From positions 1 through 64,000 of the forward strand of contig CATOJY010000012.1 in assembly GCA_951800685.1 (NCBI GenBank): a stretch of DNA of 64,000 nucleotides, read 5' to 3'. Position numbers and translations under genes: made by a program. Shown here piece by piece: positions 6,976 to 24,463 of the stretch. The first letter of the stretch is position 1; each line of letters starts with the position of its first letter. The stretch comes from an uncultured Lachnospiraceae bacterium. Lineage in GTDB: Bacteria; Bacillota; Clostridia; Lachnospirales; Lachnospiraceae. The notes under the pieces were generated by a model. The model did no database searches, was not told where the DNA came from, and saw nothing but the letters and a program-made list of their open reading frames with translations.

Positions 6976-7272
6976 TTACTCTTCCCTCCCTATTTCGTCA
7001 ATCTTATCAGTCAACGTCTCACTTGCATGAAATTTCATCACTCTATGTTCCGGTATAACGCATTCTGCTCCACTTAAAGGTACTCTGCCCCTTCTTTCTT
7101 TAGTTGTTTTCATCTCAAATCTGCCTAATCCCACTAATAGTACTTTCTCTCCCTCTGCCATACATTCCATTAATGTTTCAAAGAAAAGATCAAGTCCCTG
7201 CTTTGCTGCTTTCTTTGTAATACCGCCATTTTCTGCCATCCTGTCTATAAATTCTTTCTCCAATACTGCCAT
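6976..7272 (-). CDS. HU-family DNA-binding protein
   Basis: FIDRMAENGGITKKAAKQGLDLFFETLMECMAEGEKVLLVGLGRFEMKTTKERRGRVP is an HU/IHF-like sequence; RBS AGGGAG. Confidence 0.85.
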   Translation of the reverse strand: MAVLEKEFIDRMAENGGITKKAAKQGLDLFFETLMECMAEGEKVLLVGLGRFEMKTTKERRGRVPLSGAECVIPEHRVMKFHASETLTDKIDEIGREE

Positions 7273-7729
7273 TATACTTCTCCCTTTGTTTTATGTTCTT
7301 ACTGAAAATCCTTTGCTCTTTAGATAATCTTAATGCCAATCTTAGAAGTTCTCCATTATCTACCGTCTCACGCATTGTATCATCCCATACATGAGGCTTG
7401 TGATCTACTTCTATGCCGCCATGAAGACCTTCGTTACTCCACTTTGCTACTTGATAACCACTAACATTCCTATAGCTGTCCATAGCATCCGTATTAATAT
7501 ATACACATGCTCTTACACCGCCTTTATATGGTTGTGCTTCTACCTTTACCGCTGAAAACAGAAAATCTTTTGTTCTCTGGTAACTTGATGGTTCATATCC
7601 TGCATAGTAGTCCTGTAGAAAATAATTCAACGTCTCATATACCCTGTCTGCCAACTGGTCAGTCATTTTCAATAGTGTTGGTTGTAGTGCTTTTGCAAGT
7701 TCTTTCATGTTTTTTACATGTACTGCCAT
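7190..7729 (-). CDS. hypothetical accessory (phage-like) protein overlapping the HU gene
   Basis: Start MAVHVKNMKELAKALQP with upstream GGAAGAAAAATA; 3' end overlaps the HU start by 83 bp. Confidence 0.55.
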   Translation of the reverse strand: MAVHVKNMKELAKALQPTLLKMTDQLADRVYETLNYFLQDYYAGYEPSSYQRTKDFLFSAVKVEAQPYKGGVRACVYINTDAMDSYRNVSGYQVAKWSNEGLHGGIEVDHKPHVWDDTMRETVDNGELLRLALRLSKEQRIFSKNIKQREKYNGSIGERIYRQDGRKWRYYKESSKAGT

Positions 7730-7952
7730 TATTTTTCTTCCTTTCCGGTGCTTCAATCACCATAAGATTTCTTGCGTTGTAATCACTTCTGTCATTTTGG
7801 AACGGTTTAAAGAATACAAAATAACCAGAGTCTATATACTCACCGTTCAGTTTTGAATGATGAATAAAATACATATTACCATCTTCACCTCGGATAAATC
7901 CAAACTTTCTGTCATGGAAATATTTTGTTACATGTCCATACAATATGATCAT
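7659..7952 (-). CDS. cold-shock domain-like protein
   Basis: GHVTKYFHDRKFGFIRGEDGNMYFIHHSKL matches the RNP1/RNP2 pattern of cold-shock domains. Confidence 0.7.
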   Translation of the reverse strand: MIILYGHVTKYFHDRKFGFIRGEDGNMYFIHHSKLNGEYIDSGYFVFFKPFQNDRSDYNARNLMVIEAPERKKNNGSTCKKHERTCKSTTTNTIEND

Positions 7953-8181: not shown

Positions 8182-8262
8182 AAATGTCCTAACAACATAT
8201 GAAATTGTCACGATGTGCAGAATTTCTCCTTTCTTCTACGCTTTTGAATCGAACATATGTTA

Positions 8263-19243: not shown

Positions 19244-20269
19244 TCAATTGAACTTATAGAATCTCCGGCAGATCTTATAACCTTCCACCGATATCTTTCG
19301 TCCCCCCTTGCCAGGAAGATTCATGGAATTCCCCAGCACACCATAGCGCAGACGCATGTACATCCCCATATCTTTCTGCTTGATATACTGCCATAATTCC
19401 TGTTTCTTCTCCAATGCCTCTTCCGTCCCATCCCGTATCAACAGAATCGAGGAAATAACCGTTATGATCTCCAAATACCTAAACATATAATTTCTCAGCT
19501 TGCGGTTAGAAGCCACCTTTGCCTTATGATCGGACAGATAATCAACCATGATCTTATTAACCTTGATCTGCTGGTCAACTCTGGATATCATTACCTGTTC
19601 ATTGACCGACTGCCCCTCTCTGCCTATATAATAGCGGTAAAAATTAACATCCAGATAATACAGATTCTTTACAAACGGAAGTGGTTCAAATACAAAAATA
19701 TTATCCACGTAGAAAGTATGCTCCGGCAGTTTCAGTCCACATTCTTTCAACAACCTGGTTCTAAAGATGACCGAATGCATTAAAATATATTGTCCCTTAT
19801 GAAAATGCTTCACTTCATTCCAGGTGAAGACCCTGTCCTGTGGAAGAGCATGCCGGTACTTCATGACTTTATGTTTCCTCTCGCCCTCTTTTTCATAGAC
19901 GAAATTACTGATCAGCATATCCAAACTGGAATCTCCCGTCGCAATGTCCCTGAGAACGTCCAAAATCTTGAAATAGGCGCTCTCCTTCACCCAGTCATCG
20001 CTATCGACTACCTTAAAATATAAGCCAGTAGCATGTTCCAACCCAGCATTGACCGCCGATCCATGACCGCCATTCTCCTTATGGATCGCCTTGACAATCG
20101 ATGGATATCTCGCCTCATATCCATCCGCAATAGCTCCTGTTCCATCTGTAGAGCCATCATCAACGATCAGTATCTCTACGTCTTCTCCACCCACAAGCAA
20201 TGATTCAATACATTTGCGCATATAAGCTTCTGAATTATAGCTCGGTATTGCCACTGATAATAATTTCAT
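19244..20269 (-). CDS. glycosyltransferase family 2
   Basis: LLSVAIPSYNSEAYMRKCIESLL...ILIVDDGSTDGTG...VVDSDDW. Confidence 0.9.
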   Translation of the reverse strand: MKLLSVAIPSYNSEAYMRKCIESLLVGGEDVEILIVDDGSTDGTGAIADGYEARYPSIVKAIHKENGGHGSAVNAGLEHATGLYFKVVDSDDWVKESAYFKILDVLRDIATGDSSLDMLISNFVYEKEGERKHKVMKYRHALPQDRVFTWNEVKHFHKGQYILMHSVIFRTRLLKECGLKLPEHTFYVDNIFVFEPLPFVKNLYYLDVNFYRYYIGREGQSVNEQVMISRVDQQIKVNKIMVDYLSDHKAKVASNRKLRNYMFRYLEIITVISSILLIRDGTEEALEKKQELWQYIKQKDMGMYMRLRYGVLGNSMNLPGKGGRKISVEGYKICRRFYKFN

Positions 20270-20481: not shown

Positions 20482-22248
20482 TCAAACTCCCCTCTTCATC
20501 TCCATATGATCTGCATAGGCAGCAAACGCTGACGGAATCGGATATCTGTTCTTAGTCTCTGCAGGATCGATAAAAATATATTGCTGTCCGTCCACTTCTT
20601 CCCCAGCGTTCTTTCTCATCTTCATCAATTCATCTACGCGTATTTGATAACCAATCATATGCCATTCCTTATGGGTAAAGATATGTTTGGAAGGTTCCAA
20701 CCGCTGTATACGGAGTATCGCCATGCCAGACTGCTTCAAATAGGAGAGTACTTCTTCCTCACTCCTGTGTCCCTCCATCATCGGAAACTCATACATACCT
20801 GCAAGCAGTCCCTTGTTTTCCCTCCTATGAAGCGCCACATAATGTTCGTCCAAAATAACCATAACTGTTTTCTTCTCAATCGAACGCGGTTTCTTCGGCT
20901 TCTTTCTCGGATAATCCAAAACGCACTCCTGCAGTCTCGCCTGACACAATCCTTTCCACGGACATTCCTCGCATTTCGGTAGCCCATTGGGAATACACAC
21001 CATTGCTCCTAGTTCCATTAACGCCTGATTAAAATCACCCGGCCGGTCTTTCGGTATCACAGCCCTGAGTTCCTCTTCTATCGATCTTTTGACGCCTGTA
21101 TCCAGAATATCACGGTCATCCATCCGCAATCTGGCAAGAATCCTCAATACATTACCATCAACCGCAGGAACTGCTTTTTGAAAAGCAATCGAGGCAATCG
21201 CACCTGCTGTATAACTACCAATACCCGCAAGCTTAATCAACTGTTCATATTCTGGCGGCATCTCACCGCCATACTCCGTCATGATCTGCATAGCGGACTT
21301 TTTCAGATTCCTCGCCCGATTGTAATATCCCAGCCCTTCCCACAATTTCAGAAGCTGTTCCTCTTCCACTGCCGCAAGGCTCTCTATATCAGGAAGATAC
21401 TGCAGAAACCGGTCGTAATAAGGCTTCACCGCCTCCACCCTTGTCTGCTGCAGCATGATCTCTGACAGCCAGACATGGTATGGCGTTGGTTCTTCACGCC
21501 AGGGGAGAATTCTTCTCCCCGCATCATACCAGGCAAGCAATGGCCGTGCGATCAAATCCAGACGATCCAATACAACAGGCACTTGTCTGTCCAACACAAG
21601 GCTGTCCTTCCCTACCAGACAATCATAGGCAAGTAAATGCACCCCTGCACTTCGCGCCTTCTTCAACGCTTCCCCGAAAGCTGGCTGTGTCTTCCAATTC
21701 GGTTCCACATGTGCAATCCCTTTCATCTGGACAACGAAGATCAGATATGCCTCATAGCCCAGGGCATGTGCTTCCACTAGCTCTTCTACATGTTTTACCG
21801 CGCGTGCAGATGGTGCGTCTGGAAATGCCGCTATATTATCATTCTCCAATGTGACGCCTTTGACCTCTATAAATGCCCTGCATCCCGCCTCACTCTCCAC
21901 ATAAAAGTCAAACCGGGAATTCCCAAAGACTGTCTCCGGCCGCAGCAGAGTGATATCCTCGTATAATCCTCCTGACGACAGCCACTCACCCACTACCTTA
22001 TTCGGTGCATTCGAATCCATATTAATCAATCTTCCCGCCTTATCCACCGCTACAAGATCATAAGCCGTAGAACGATTCCGATTATCGCTCTGCTCCAGAT
22101 ATACCTGTGCATTGTCACGCAGCAATTCCCGACATCTCCCCGTATTCTTAACATGTACCTTCGTTTTTGTGCCATCTATATCCACATAGGCTATAAAACG
22201 GTTCGGTCTCTCTATAAAATTTGCTGTGATTATCTCATTATATCTCAT
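20482..22248 (-). CDS. Fusion protein: SfsA nuclease-like N-terminus + MutY A/G-specific adenine glycosylase with FeS cluster and NUDIX-like C-terminus
   Basis: SfsA: VHVKNTGRCRELL, RFDFYVE...FIEVKGVTLENDNIAAFPDAPSARAVKHVEEL. MutY: ILPWREEPTPYHVWLSEIMLQQTRVEAV, LAGIGSYTAGAIAS, VDGNVLRILARL, Cx6Cx2Cx5C. Confidence 0.93.
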   Translation of the reverse strand: MRYNEIITANFIERPNRFIAYVDIDGTKTKVHVKNTGRCRELLRDNAQVYLEQSDNRNRSTAYDLVAVDKAGRLINMDSNAPNKVVGEWLSSGGLYEDITLLRPETVFGNSRFDFYVESEAGCRAFIEVKGVTLENDNIAAFPDAPSARAVKHVEELVEAHALGYEAYLIFVVQMKGIAHVEPNWKTQPAFGEALKKARSAGVHLLAYDCLVGKDSLVLDRQVPVVLDRLDLIARPLLAWYDAGRRILPWREEPTPYHVWLSEIMLQQTRVEAVKPYYDRFLQYLPDIESLAAVEEEQLLKLWEGLGYYNRARNLKKSAMQIMTEYGGEMPPEYEQLIKLAGIGSYTAGAIASIAFQKAVPAVDGNVLRILARLRMDDRDILDTGVKRSIEEELRAVIPKDRPGDFNQALMELGAMVCIPNGLPKCEECPWKGLCQARLQECVLDYPRKKPKKPRSIEKKTVMVILDEHYVALHRRENKGLLAGMYEFPMMEGHRSEEEVLSYLKQSGMAILRIQRLEPSKHIFTHKEWHMIGYQIRVDELMKMRKNAGEEVDGQQYIFIDPAETKNRYPIPSAFAAYADHMEMKRGV

Positions 22249-22338
22249 ATTATGTAAACTGCAAAATCTTCTCCATCCCTTTATCTTTTATATCAAGACC
22301 GTAACCCTTCTTAATTTCGTCTTTTTAGCTCCTCAAGA

Positions 22339-23283
22339 TTAACTACTGTCCAATTCCTCTTCTGTCTCGTCACAGGGAACCTTCTTCTTGTACGGCACTC
22401 TGGCGGCAGGCACTACTTCTGATGCTGGCACCGTATGCATTGACTGATCATCGAAGAAAATATGTGCTCCAAATGCATGCAATACCTCTTTCTTGCGGAC
22501 TCCCCCAAGGAAAAACACTTCATCGATACGCACATTCCATGCCCGCAGGGTACGGATCACTCTCTCATGCGTCGGTGCACATCTTGATGTCACAAGTGCG
22601 GTTCTGATCGGTGCTGTCTCTACAGTGCAATCCTTCTGCAGCTCAGACAACATCTTAAGAAATTTAGCAAAAGGTCCTGCCTCCAGTGGATTGTTGGCAT
22701 TCCTTCTCTCATTCTCCGCAAAAGCCTCCAGTCCCTGTTCCTTAAAAATTTGTTCCGAGTCATCCGAAAATAGTACCGCATCTCCATCAAACGCAATCCG
22801 AATCTGTCTAATCTGATGATCACAATCGTAAGTGCACAATCCTTCCGTACAGATGATACCCGCCGCTATATTGGAATCAATTGCGCTCTGTACATCATCC
22901 TCGTATGCCGATAAAAATAAGTCCGTCTTAAAAGCCGACAGATACGGTGCCAGAGAAGCGCCACTGGCAAGAACAGCTCTGGTGATATCGAGACCATAAT
23001 GCTCTATCGTGTTAAAAACACGTAGCGAAGAATCCGGGCTATTCCTGGACATGATAATTACTTCCACACTGCCTTCCCTGCCTGGCAGATGATTCAGATT
23101 AAGAAGTGCCTTAACCAGGGGAAAACCTGGACCTGGCCGCAGGATCTCATTTTCATGTTCGATCTGATACCTGCAGTATGCTTCCACACCATCTGACTCA
23201 AATATAGTATTCTCATAAGTCAGGTCAAACAACGCCCTGGATGATACACCTACCACCAGTTTATTCTCTAGATCATACGCCAT
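22339..23283 (-). CDS. 5'-nucleotidase (cytosolic NT5C1-like family)
   Basis: LVVGVSSRALFDL...GPGFPLVKALLNLN...SRNSPDSSLRVFNTIEHYGLDITRAVLASG...RIAFDGDAVLFSDDSE. Confidence 0.85.
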   Translation of the reverse strand: MAYDLENKLVVGVSSRALFDLTYENTIFESDGVEAYCRYQIEHENEILRPGPGFPLVKALLNLNHLPGREGSVEVIIMSRNSPDSSLRVFNTIEHYGLDITRAVLASGASLAPYLSAFKTDLFLSAYEDDVQSAIDSNIAAGIICTEGLCTYDCDHQIRQIRIAFDGDAVLFSDDSEQIFKEQGLEAFAENERRNANNPLEAGPFAKFLKMLSELQKDCTVETAPIRTALVTSRCAPTHERVIRTLRAWNVRIDEVFFLGGVRKKEVLHAFGAHIFFDDQSMHTVPASEVVPAARVPYKKKVPCDETEEELDSS

Positions 23284-23358
23284 AGATTACCTCCCGGTCC
23301 GAATCAAACGCTTATTCTACTACCTCTTATTTGATCCGCCGGAAGACACTCCTAAAAA

Positions 23359-23913
23359 CTACCGCAGCCTGTTACACTCATACTTCTCAAACGTCAACAG
23401 GCAGTTCCTGAATTCCTCATAGCGCTCTTCTACACTGCCTTCCTTAATTTCCAGATCGACAGCCATCGCCATCGTGTTGATCATCTCATCCGTAATCCTA
23501 TGCCGGAGCGCCGCCAGAACATTGAGTCTCTGTTCATACGTGTCTGCTTCCAGGAATTCCATCACCAGTGGATCAATATTTAGTTGTTCCTCCAATCCTG
23601 CTGCCTGTTCCTCCTGCAAAGATGAGATCTGTTCTGATATCTCTTCTCTGTCTGCCTCCTGCGGCGAAGACTCCAACTCCATATCCTGCAGCAGTTCAAA
23701 GCGATACTTCTGCGTAACATTTGGATATTTCGTAGAATCTACCTCTTCCATAAACATAGCAAGCGGTCTGACATAGATCTGAAAAGTATCATACATGGCC
23801 TGATAGACTACCATCATCTCTCTTGTCTCACTGTGCTTTGCAAGACAGCGGATCTGATAAATATTTCCTTTAAAATGTCTGTACATTTCCTGTGGTTTGG
23901 GATTCGGTCTCAT
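23359..23913 (-). CDS. DUF1653 domain-containing protein
   Basis: EMYRHFKGNIYQIRCLAKHSETREMMVVYQAMYDTFQIYVRPLAMFMEEVD; RBS GGAG before ATG at 23913. Confidence 0.85.
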   Translation of the reverse strand: MRPNPKPQEMYRHFKGNIYQIRCLAKHSETREMMVVYQAMYDTFQIYVRPLAMFMEEVDSTKYPNVTQKYRFELLQDMELESSPQEADREEISEQISSLQEEQAAGLEEQLNIDPLVMEFLEADTYEQRLNVLAALRHRITDEMINTMAMAVDLEIKEGSVEERYEEFRNCLLTFEKYECNRLR

Positions 23914-24051
23914 ATACTGCTCCAATCTACCTAAAATAGAAAAGTCATTTCCGTTTCAGCTGAAAATTCCTTTCCTGTAAACGTTGCTTTCATCTAGTAT
24001 AATCCCAAATCGTGAAAAAGTCATTCTTAAAGTTTTCATATCACCAAAATA

Positions 24052-24099
24052 GAACAAATGTTCTGTTTTGATGATAGAACATATATTCGGTTTTGTCAA
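24052..24099 (-). promoter_or_regulatory. Sigma-A promoter overlapped by two LexA (SOS) box-like sites
   Basis: Minus strand TTGACA (24094-24099)-N17-TATCAT (24071-24076). GAATATATGTTC lies in the spacer (24077-24088) and GAACATTTGTTC is downstream (24052-24063). Confidence 0.75.
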
Positions 24100-24103
24100 T
24101 AGT

Positions 24104-24463
24104 TTACAGATCATATTGAAAGATACAGGTACCACGTCCAAACTCTGCCTGTGACAATGACTTCCTCAAAAACAACTTATCTTCTGCTGTCATCCGTTCC
24201 AGTCTCCTGTGATGAATCTGTACTCTGTATTCCCTGCTGCCGTCCCCATAAGTTACCCTGGTCATCATTACACCACAGTCGACAAAACCCTGTTCTCTCA
24301 GGTAGATCTTCGTATTCTCCACATATTCCTGTTCCAGTCCCAGATAGTATTCATTCTCCTGTGCGCGCTGTGGATTTCCCTTACTCATCACAGTACCTTT
24401 CACACAGAAAATAATGACCACTACCAGCAGAATTGTAAATATTGTAAATCTTCTCCCCGACAT
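24104..24463 (-). CDS. hypothetical membrane/secreted protein
   Basis: N-terminal TM FTIFTILLVVVIIFCVKG, then ~85 aa exterior. Confidence 0.65.
   Translation of the reverse strand: MSGRRFTIFTILLVVVIIFCVKGTVMSKGNPQRAQENEYYLGLEQEYVENTKIYLREQGFVDCGVMMTRVTYGDGSREYRVQIHHRRLERMTAEDKLFLRKSLSQAEFGRGTCIFQYDL

Follow-up and report, generated by a model that had tools for sequence, protein, structure and literature searches.

A housekeeping operon encoding a DUF1653 protein, a cytosolic 5'-nucleotidase and an SfsA-MutY fusion has probably (a likelihood of about 0.8) been placed under LexA control by one clade of a Lachnospiraceae genus, where an upstream promoter, P1, would raise the whole unit after DNA damage. 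LexA binding, damage induction, co-transcription and a joint function of the products are all predicted from sequence. The window, which is the whole 64,000-nucleotide stretch analysed here, belongs to contig 12 of a draft assembly of 3.9 Mb (95% complete, 5% contaminated). The nearest named relatives are mostly gut Lachnospiraceae genomes, metagenome-assembled. The families used for comparison were sampled, not exhaustive. The locus is composed of the following features.

24104..24463, minus strand: small membrane-anchored ORF (119 aa) without Pfam family; upstream of P1, not downstream of it
24071..24099, minus strand: P1, sigma-A-type promoter; TTGACA (24099-24094), 17-bp spacer, TATCAT (24076-24071)
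24077..24088, minus strand: predicted LexA box 1, GAATATATGTTC; one mismatch to GAAC-N4-GTTC; touches the -10 and occupies the 3' portion of the P1 spacer
24052..24063, minus strand: predicted LexA box 2, GAACATTTGTTC; exact GAAC-N4-GTTC, just 3' of the P1 -10
23996..24024, minus strand: P2, box-free promoter, ATGACT-17-TATACT; conserved house promoter of DUF1653
23359..23913, minus strand: DUF1653 protein (184 aa); PF07866, 6.7e-25; N-terminal SH3/Tudor-like barrel and C-terminal four-helix domain
22339..23283, minus strand: cN-I-type (NT5C1-like) cytosolic 5'-nucleotidase (314 aa); PF06189, 2.4e-130; DGD, ALVT, GGVRKKE and FFDDQ motifs
20482..22248, minus strand: SfsA-MutY-NUDIX_4 fusion (588 aa); SfsA with OB and PD-(D/E)XK domains; TIGR00230 and TIGR01084 both above cut-off
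19244..20269, minus strand: family-2 glycosyltransferase; the next same-strand gene; where enough of a genus locus was read, it mostly follows MutY

Across the family Lachnospiraceae, the membrane-anchored ORF is conserved next to the operon on its upstream side. The three genes, with profile matches to PF07866, PF06189, TIGR00230 and TIGR01084, and their coordinates are as assigned in an earlier note on this DNA. The nucleotidase matches PF06189 with 434 bits over residues 1-300, and its HAD motifs (FDGDAV, LVT, GGVRKKE and FFDDQ) are invariant or nearly invariant in 11 sequences. The comparison of its sequence with solved structures gave no match. The SfsA part reaches 162 bits against TIGR00230 (cut-off 126.5) and contains an OB domain and RFD...IEVKG, the PD-(D/E)XK half-motif. 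The MutY part reaches 315 bits against TIGR01084 (cut-off 286.5) and is followed by a C-terminal NUDIX_4 domain (PF14815). WLSEIMLQQT, VDGNV and C-7-C-2-C-5-C are present in its sequence, representing the catalytic Glu and Asp and the four-Cys iron-sulphur motif. No other MutY in the genome is above the family cut-off. The catalytic motifs of MutY, SfsA and the nucleotidase are read as intact.

The genus was represented by 60 genomes. DUF1653 was found in 55, among them all 28 of good quality, and 54 of the loci were read. The three genes are on the same strand, in conserved order, and the gaps of 75 and 90 bp between them in the window contain no terminator. The nucleotidase gene follows DUF1653 in all 54 genus loci and in 13 of the 15 family relatives having DUF1653. 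MutY comes next in 48 of the 54; one more locus is cut by a contig end, and five go directly to the glycosyltransferase. Across the genus, the gap after DUF1653 is mostly 40-130 bp, and the nucleotidase and MutY genes are often 1-15 bp apart or overlapping. The terminator scan of the operon gaps in the genus gave one weak, AT-rich candidate in one species and none that was convincing. No terminator was found in the gap between MutY and the glycosyltransferase either, and the latter is probably the end of the same transcription unit. In some relatives, MutY lacks the SfsA part or SfsA is encoded by a gene of its own. This layout agrees with the single operon proposed earlier, and co-transcription of the three genes is inferred from it.

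Gene order was also compared beyond the genus. It is present in about a dozen other genera, without boxes, and P1 is limited to one clade; the gene order is, judged from these comparisons, older than the SOS control. For this reason, the earlier note's view of the operon as essentially an SOS module is not supported. Since the order predates the boxes, co-location alone does not imply a damage function. MutY is present in all 38 assessable operons of the P1 clade, while the sister clade has it in 9 of its 14 operons (Fisher p 0.0008, a value that ignores relatedness).

P1 (TTGACA-17-TATCAT) scores 11/12 as a promoter. Box 1 fills its spacer, and box 2 is located 25 bp further downstream. Plain counting of boxes was rejected as evidence, as the window contains 22 one-mismatch boxes against 18.3 expected, which is the chance level. 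The evidence is therefore based on a scoring matrix, on the conservation of the box pair and on the layout at recA. The matrix was trained on recA and lexA boxes only, without the operon sites. Box 2 scores 24.3, the first rank in the 64 kb, and exceeds every training site (maximum 23.5); box 1 scores 15.0, the third in the window. The genome's 29 other exact GAAC-N4-GTTC sites that were scored all stay below box 2 (best 22.3). The boxes of recA, uvrB and lexA in the same genome score 21.1, 17.3 and 17.0, respectively. Another LexA-like box in the window, GAACATATGTTA at 8251-8262 (matrix score 15.7), is in the gap upstream of a minus-strand gene, 7190-7756, which looks phage-like.

The core of the operon boxes is the same as the cores upstream of recA and lexA in the same genome, and related cores are present upstream of uvrB and a radical-SAM gene. 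At one such locus (L003, G000:C43:31235), a strong LexA box (22.3) is found ~140 bp upstream of a radical-SAM gene which, by eye, looks like the DNA-repair/UDG-linked type. A recA box pair is present in all 27 genomes where recA was found, mostly with ~25 bp spacing. It consists of GAACATTTGTTT and then GAACAAATGTTC, or close variants, regardless of the presence of boxes at DUF1653. The promoters of recA and of the operon (P1) are nearly alike (ATTGACAAAACCGAACATTTGTTT against ATTGACAAAACCGAATATATGTTC), and a box of the species' own type lies over P1. The rank in the recA/lexA matrix, the conserved pair and the same layout at recA support the prediction, already made in the earlier note, that P1 is under LexA-type control, with LexA binding and damage induction as its expected consequences. 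In addition to the LexA-like gene at C14:5168, the genome has a second, full-length one at G000:C1:105390-105983 (L031); at most one was seen in each of the other tested genomes of the genus.

Two boxes 23-29 bp apart were observed in 39 of the 54 genus species, where 0.02 pairs were expected by chance from Markov-shuffled upstream regions. The matrix scores over the 54 loci are bimodal, 39 being at least 16.0 and 15 at most 4.2. The TTGACA-N5-box-TAxxxT layout is conserved in the 39 species with boxes. In the tree of nucleotidase proteins, these 39 species and one species without boxes form one clade (98/93). A second group (90/90) holds the remaining 14 species, all boxless. The simplest reading of this single-gene tree is that the box pair was gained once and lost once. 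Boxes at orthologous loci are confined to this one clade; outside the genus, ~80 DUF1653 loci of the same family have no convincing box. An exact box in another genus (GAACACTAGTTC; G087/L039) was considered as a second gain and rejected. Its matrix score is only 7.1, and it was treated as chance because ~0.4 such matches are expected among the loci. The pair is retained at varying distances of P1 from the gene, with box 1 at about -115 to -371. In three loci (L156, L157 and L161), short repeated palindromic elements are inserted between P1 and P2, making the leader longer and leaving the boxes intact. As far as sequence can tell, neither of the two observations that the earlier note named as evidence against its proposal, separate promoters with no damage induction or unconserved gene order and boxes, applies here.

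P1 is not the sole promoter, because the box-free P2 sits between P1 and DUF1653. The overlap of a strong promoter with LexA-like boxes holds as described before; that it is the only one does not, as P2 (24024-23996) is conserved. P2, an ATGACA-17-TATAAT-like promoter, lies immediately 5' of DUF1653 at nearly every genus locus, whether P1 is there or not. A P2-like promoter is also readable in most operon loci of other genera. Wherever the promoter pattern matched, members of the P1 clade have TATACT as the P2 -10, the one species that lost the boxes among them, and those of the sister clade have TATAAT. The control of the operon is best seen as basal transcription from P2 plus transcription from P1 that is predicted to be damage-induced. 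P2 could dominate, with a minor contribution of P1, which would count against the main view. The presence of a glycosyltransferase in the unit also speaks against this view.

It is possible, at rather low odds, that P1 is LexA-controlled and that what matters among its products is DUF1653 (with the nucleotidase) alone, MutY and the glycosyltransferase being passengers of the older operon that are not raised to effect. The operon is indeed older than P1, some relatives have it without MutY, and DUF1653 is also found beside other repair genes without the nucleotidase. Although the 75-90 bp gaps could hold processing sites, no terminators were found in them, many species have nucleotidase and MutY genes that overlap or almost abut, and MutY is kept in every assessable operon of the P1 clade.

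An unlikely alternative is that P1 makes a separate short product, a small RNA or an SOS peptide, before DUF1653, while P2 runs the operon. The location of P2 between P1 and DUF1653 and the highly variable distance from P1 to the gene would fit such a product, but the leader sequence is unconserved apart from P2 and has no common ORF. A leader peptide is not supported, as putative ORFs with a ribosome site are present in only 9 of the 39 P1 loci, are mostly unrelated in sequence and are absent from the window. It is highly improbable that the boxes bind another palindrome-reading repressor instead of LexA. Even though the genome encodes a second LexA-like protein, the sequence, spacing and promoter fit of the boxes match those at recA of the same genomes, and the top scores came from a matrix to which the operon sites did not contribute.

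In the long-form DUF1653 protein, the PF07866 domain is joined by a conserved helical domain at the C-terminus (model mean pLDDT 87.6, with a low-confidence linker). The sole significant match in the fold search was the DUF1653 structure 3be3. The Tudor/RID domains of CarD, Mfd and PcrA were below significance (E 0.2-0.7), so RNA-polymerase binding is a lead only. DUF1653 directly precedes a UvrC-like gene in seven other genera with gaps of -4 to 53 bp (L051, L059, L060, L062, L063, L075 and L092; 4-bp overlap in two); the UvrC-like identity is based on Pfam for four genera and on matching N-terminal sequence for the other three. In four other genera it directly precedes SfsA or MutY. These adjacencies support a repair role for the long form. 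Across the rest of the phylum, short DUF1653 proteins prevail and their neighbours are mostly unrelated to repair, so the repair link is confined to the long form found in Lachnospiraceae. In many genera, a CYTH-domain gene (triphosphate tunnel enzyme type) is convergent to DUF1653 (L071, L074, L086, L087, L089, L097, L103 and others). The literature searched, with partial coverage, contained one proteomics table on DUF1653. Because the operon promoter is built like that of recA, the family probably belongs to the DNA-damage response. As a tentative idea, long-form DUF1653 might be a genome-maintenance factor, possibly a Tudor-type adaptor binding RNA polymerase or repair enzymes, whose partners are UvrC or MutY depending on the lineage; in one clade it would be strongly LexA-controlled, along with a nucleotidase whose role would be to clear damaged nucleoside monophosphates.

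LexA bound over a -35/-10 spacer and a transcript start blocks the promoter until its RecA-stimulated self-cleavage. In the reading favoured here, an old Lachnospiraceae operon (DUF1653, cN-I 5'-nucleotidase, SfsA-MutY and glycosyltransferase) would be basally transcribed from P2. One clade would have gained the upstream P1 with two LexA operators placed as at recA, one in the -35/-10 spacer and one at the transcript start. LexA would shut P1 until RecA is activated by damage, and the whole operon would then be raised. More MutY would remove A opposite 8-oxoG in base-excision repair, and the nucleotidase would trim damaged or excess nucleoside monophosphates. SfsA may contribute a nuclease, and DUF1653 may be an accessory repair factor. 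A link of the nucleotidase to 8-oxo-dGMP is speculation; the literature on 8-oxo-dGMP nucleotidases, covered in part, gave one review and no direct support.

The locus shares with the LexA/SOS regulon of Gram-positive bacteria the GAAC-N4-GTTC box, the position at a sigma-A promoter and the boxes at its own recA, lexA and uvrB. It differs in its predicted target, the DUF1653/cN-I nucleotidase/SfsA-MutY operon. The in silico LexA regulon of C. difficile, one survey in Clostridia, does not mention the nucleotidase, mutY, sfsA or the DUF (PMC4234289). No report of such a LexA-controlled operon, of an SfsA-MutY fusion or of a nucleotidase with a LexA box was found in the literature searched, whose coverage was partial. 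The operon holds the MutY arm of the GO system (MutT/MutM/MutY) for 8-oxoguanine repair, with the NUDIX_4 reading domain. Unlike in that system, MutY is linked here to a cN-I nucleotidase, SfsA and DUF1653, with predicted LexA control. The mutY gene is not known to be a classical LexA target. In Vibrio cholerae, mutY is reported to be raised by mitomycin C, among responses beyond SOS (PMC5963079). The SfsA family is predicted to be a PD-(D/E)XK nuclease (PMC1189080). Like this family, the window protein has the OB domain and a nuclease domain bearing the EVK half-motif; it differs in that SfsA is fused to the N-terminus of MutY. The N-terminal domain of the DUF1653 protein matches 3be3 (Bordetella, function unknown) in sequence and fold; the long Lachnospiraceae form adds the C-terminal four-helix domain, which most short forms in the rest of the phylum lack.

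Among abundant gut bacteria, the predicted control would bring the uncharacterised DUF1653 family into the SOS response; the ties of the family to uvrC and mutY offer a concrete entry point to its function. The operon would also be a clean case of an existing operon wired into the SOS network by one clade, with a recA-like promoter gained once. The change of the P2 -10 from TATAAT to TATACT marks the same clade as the gain of P1.
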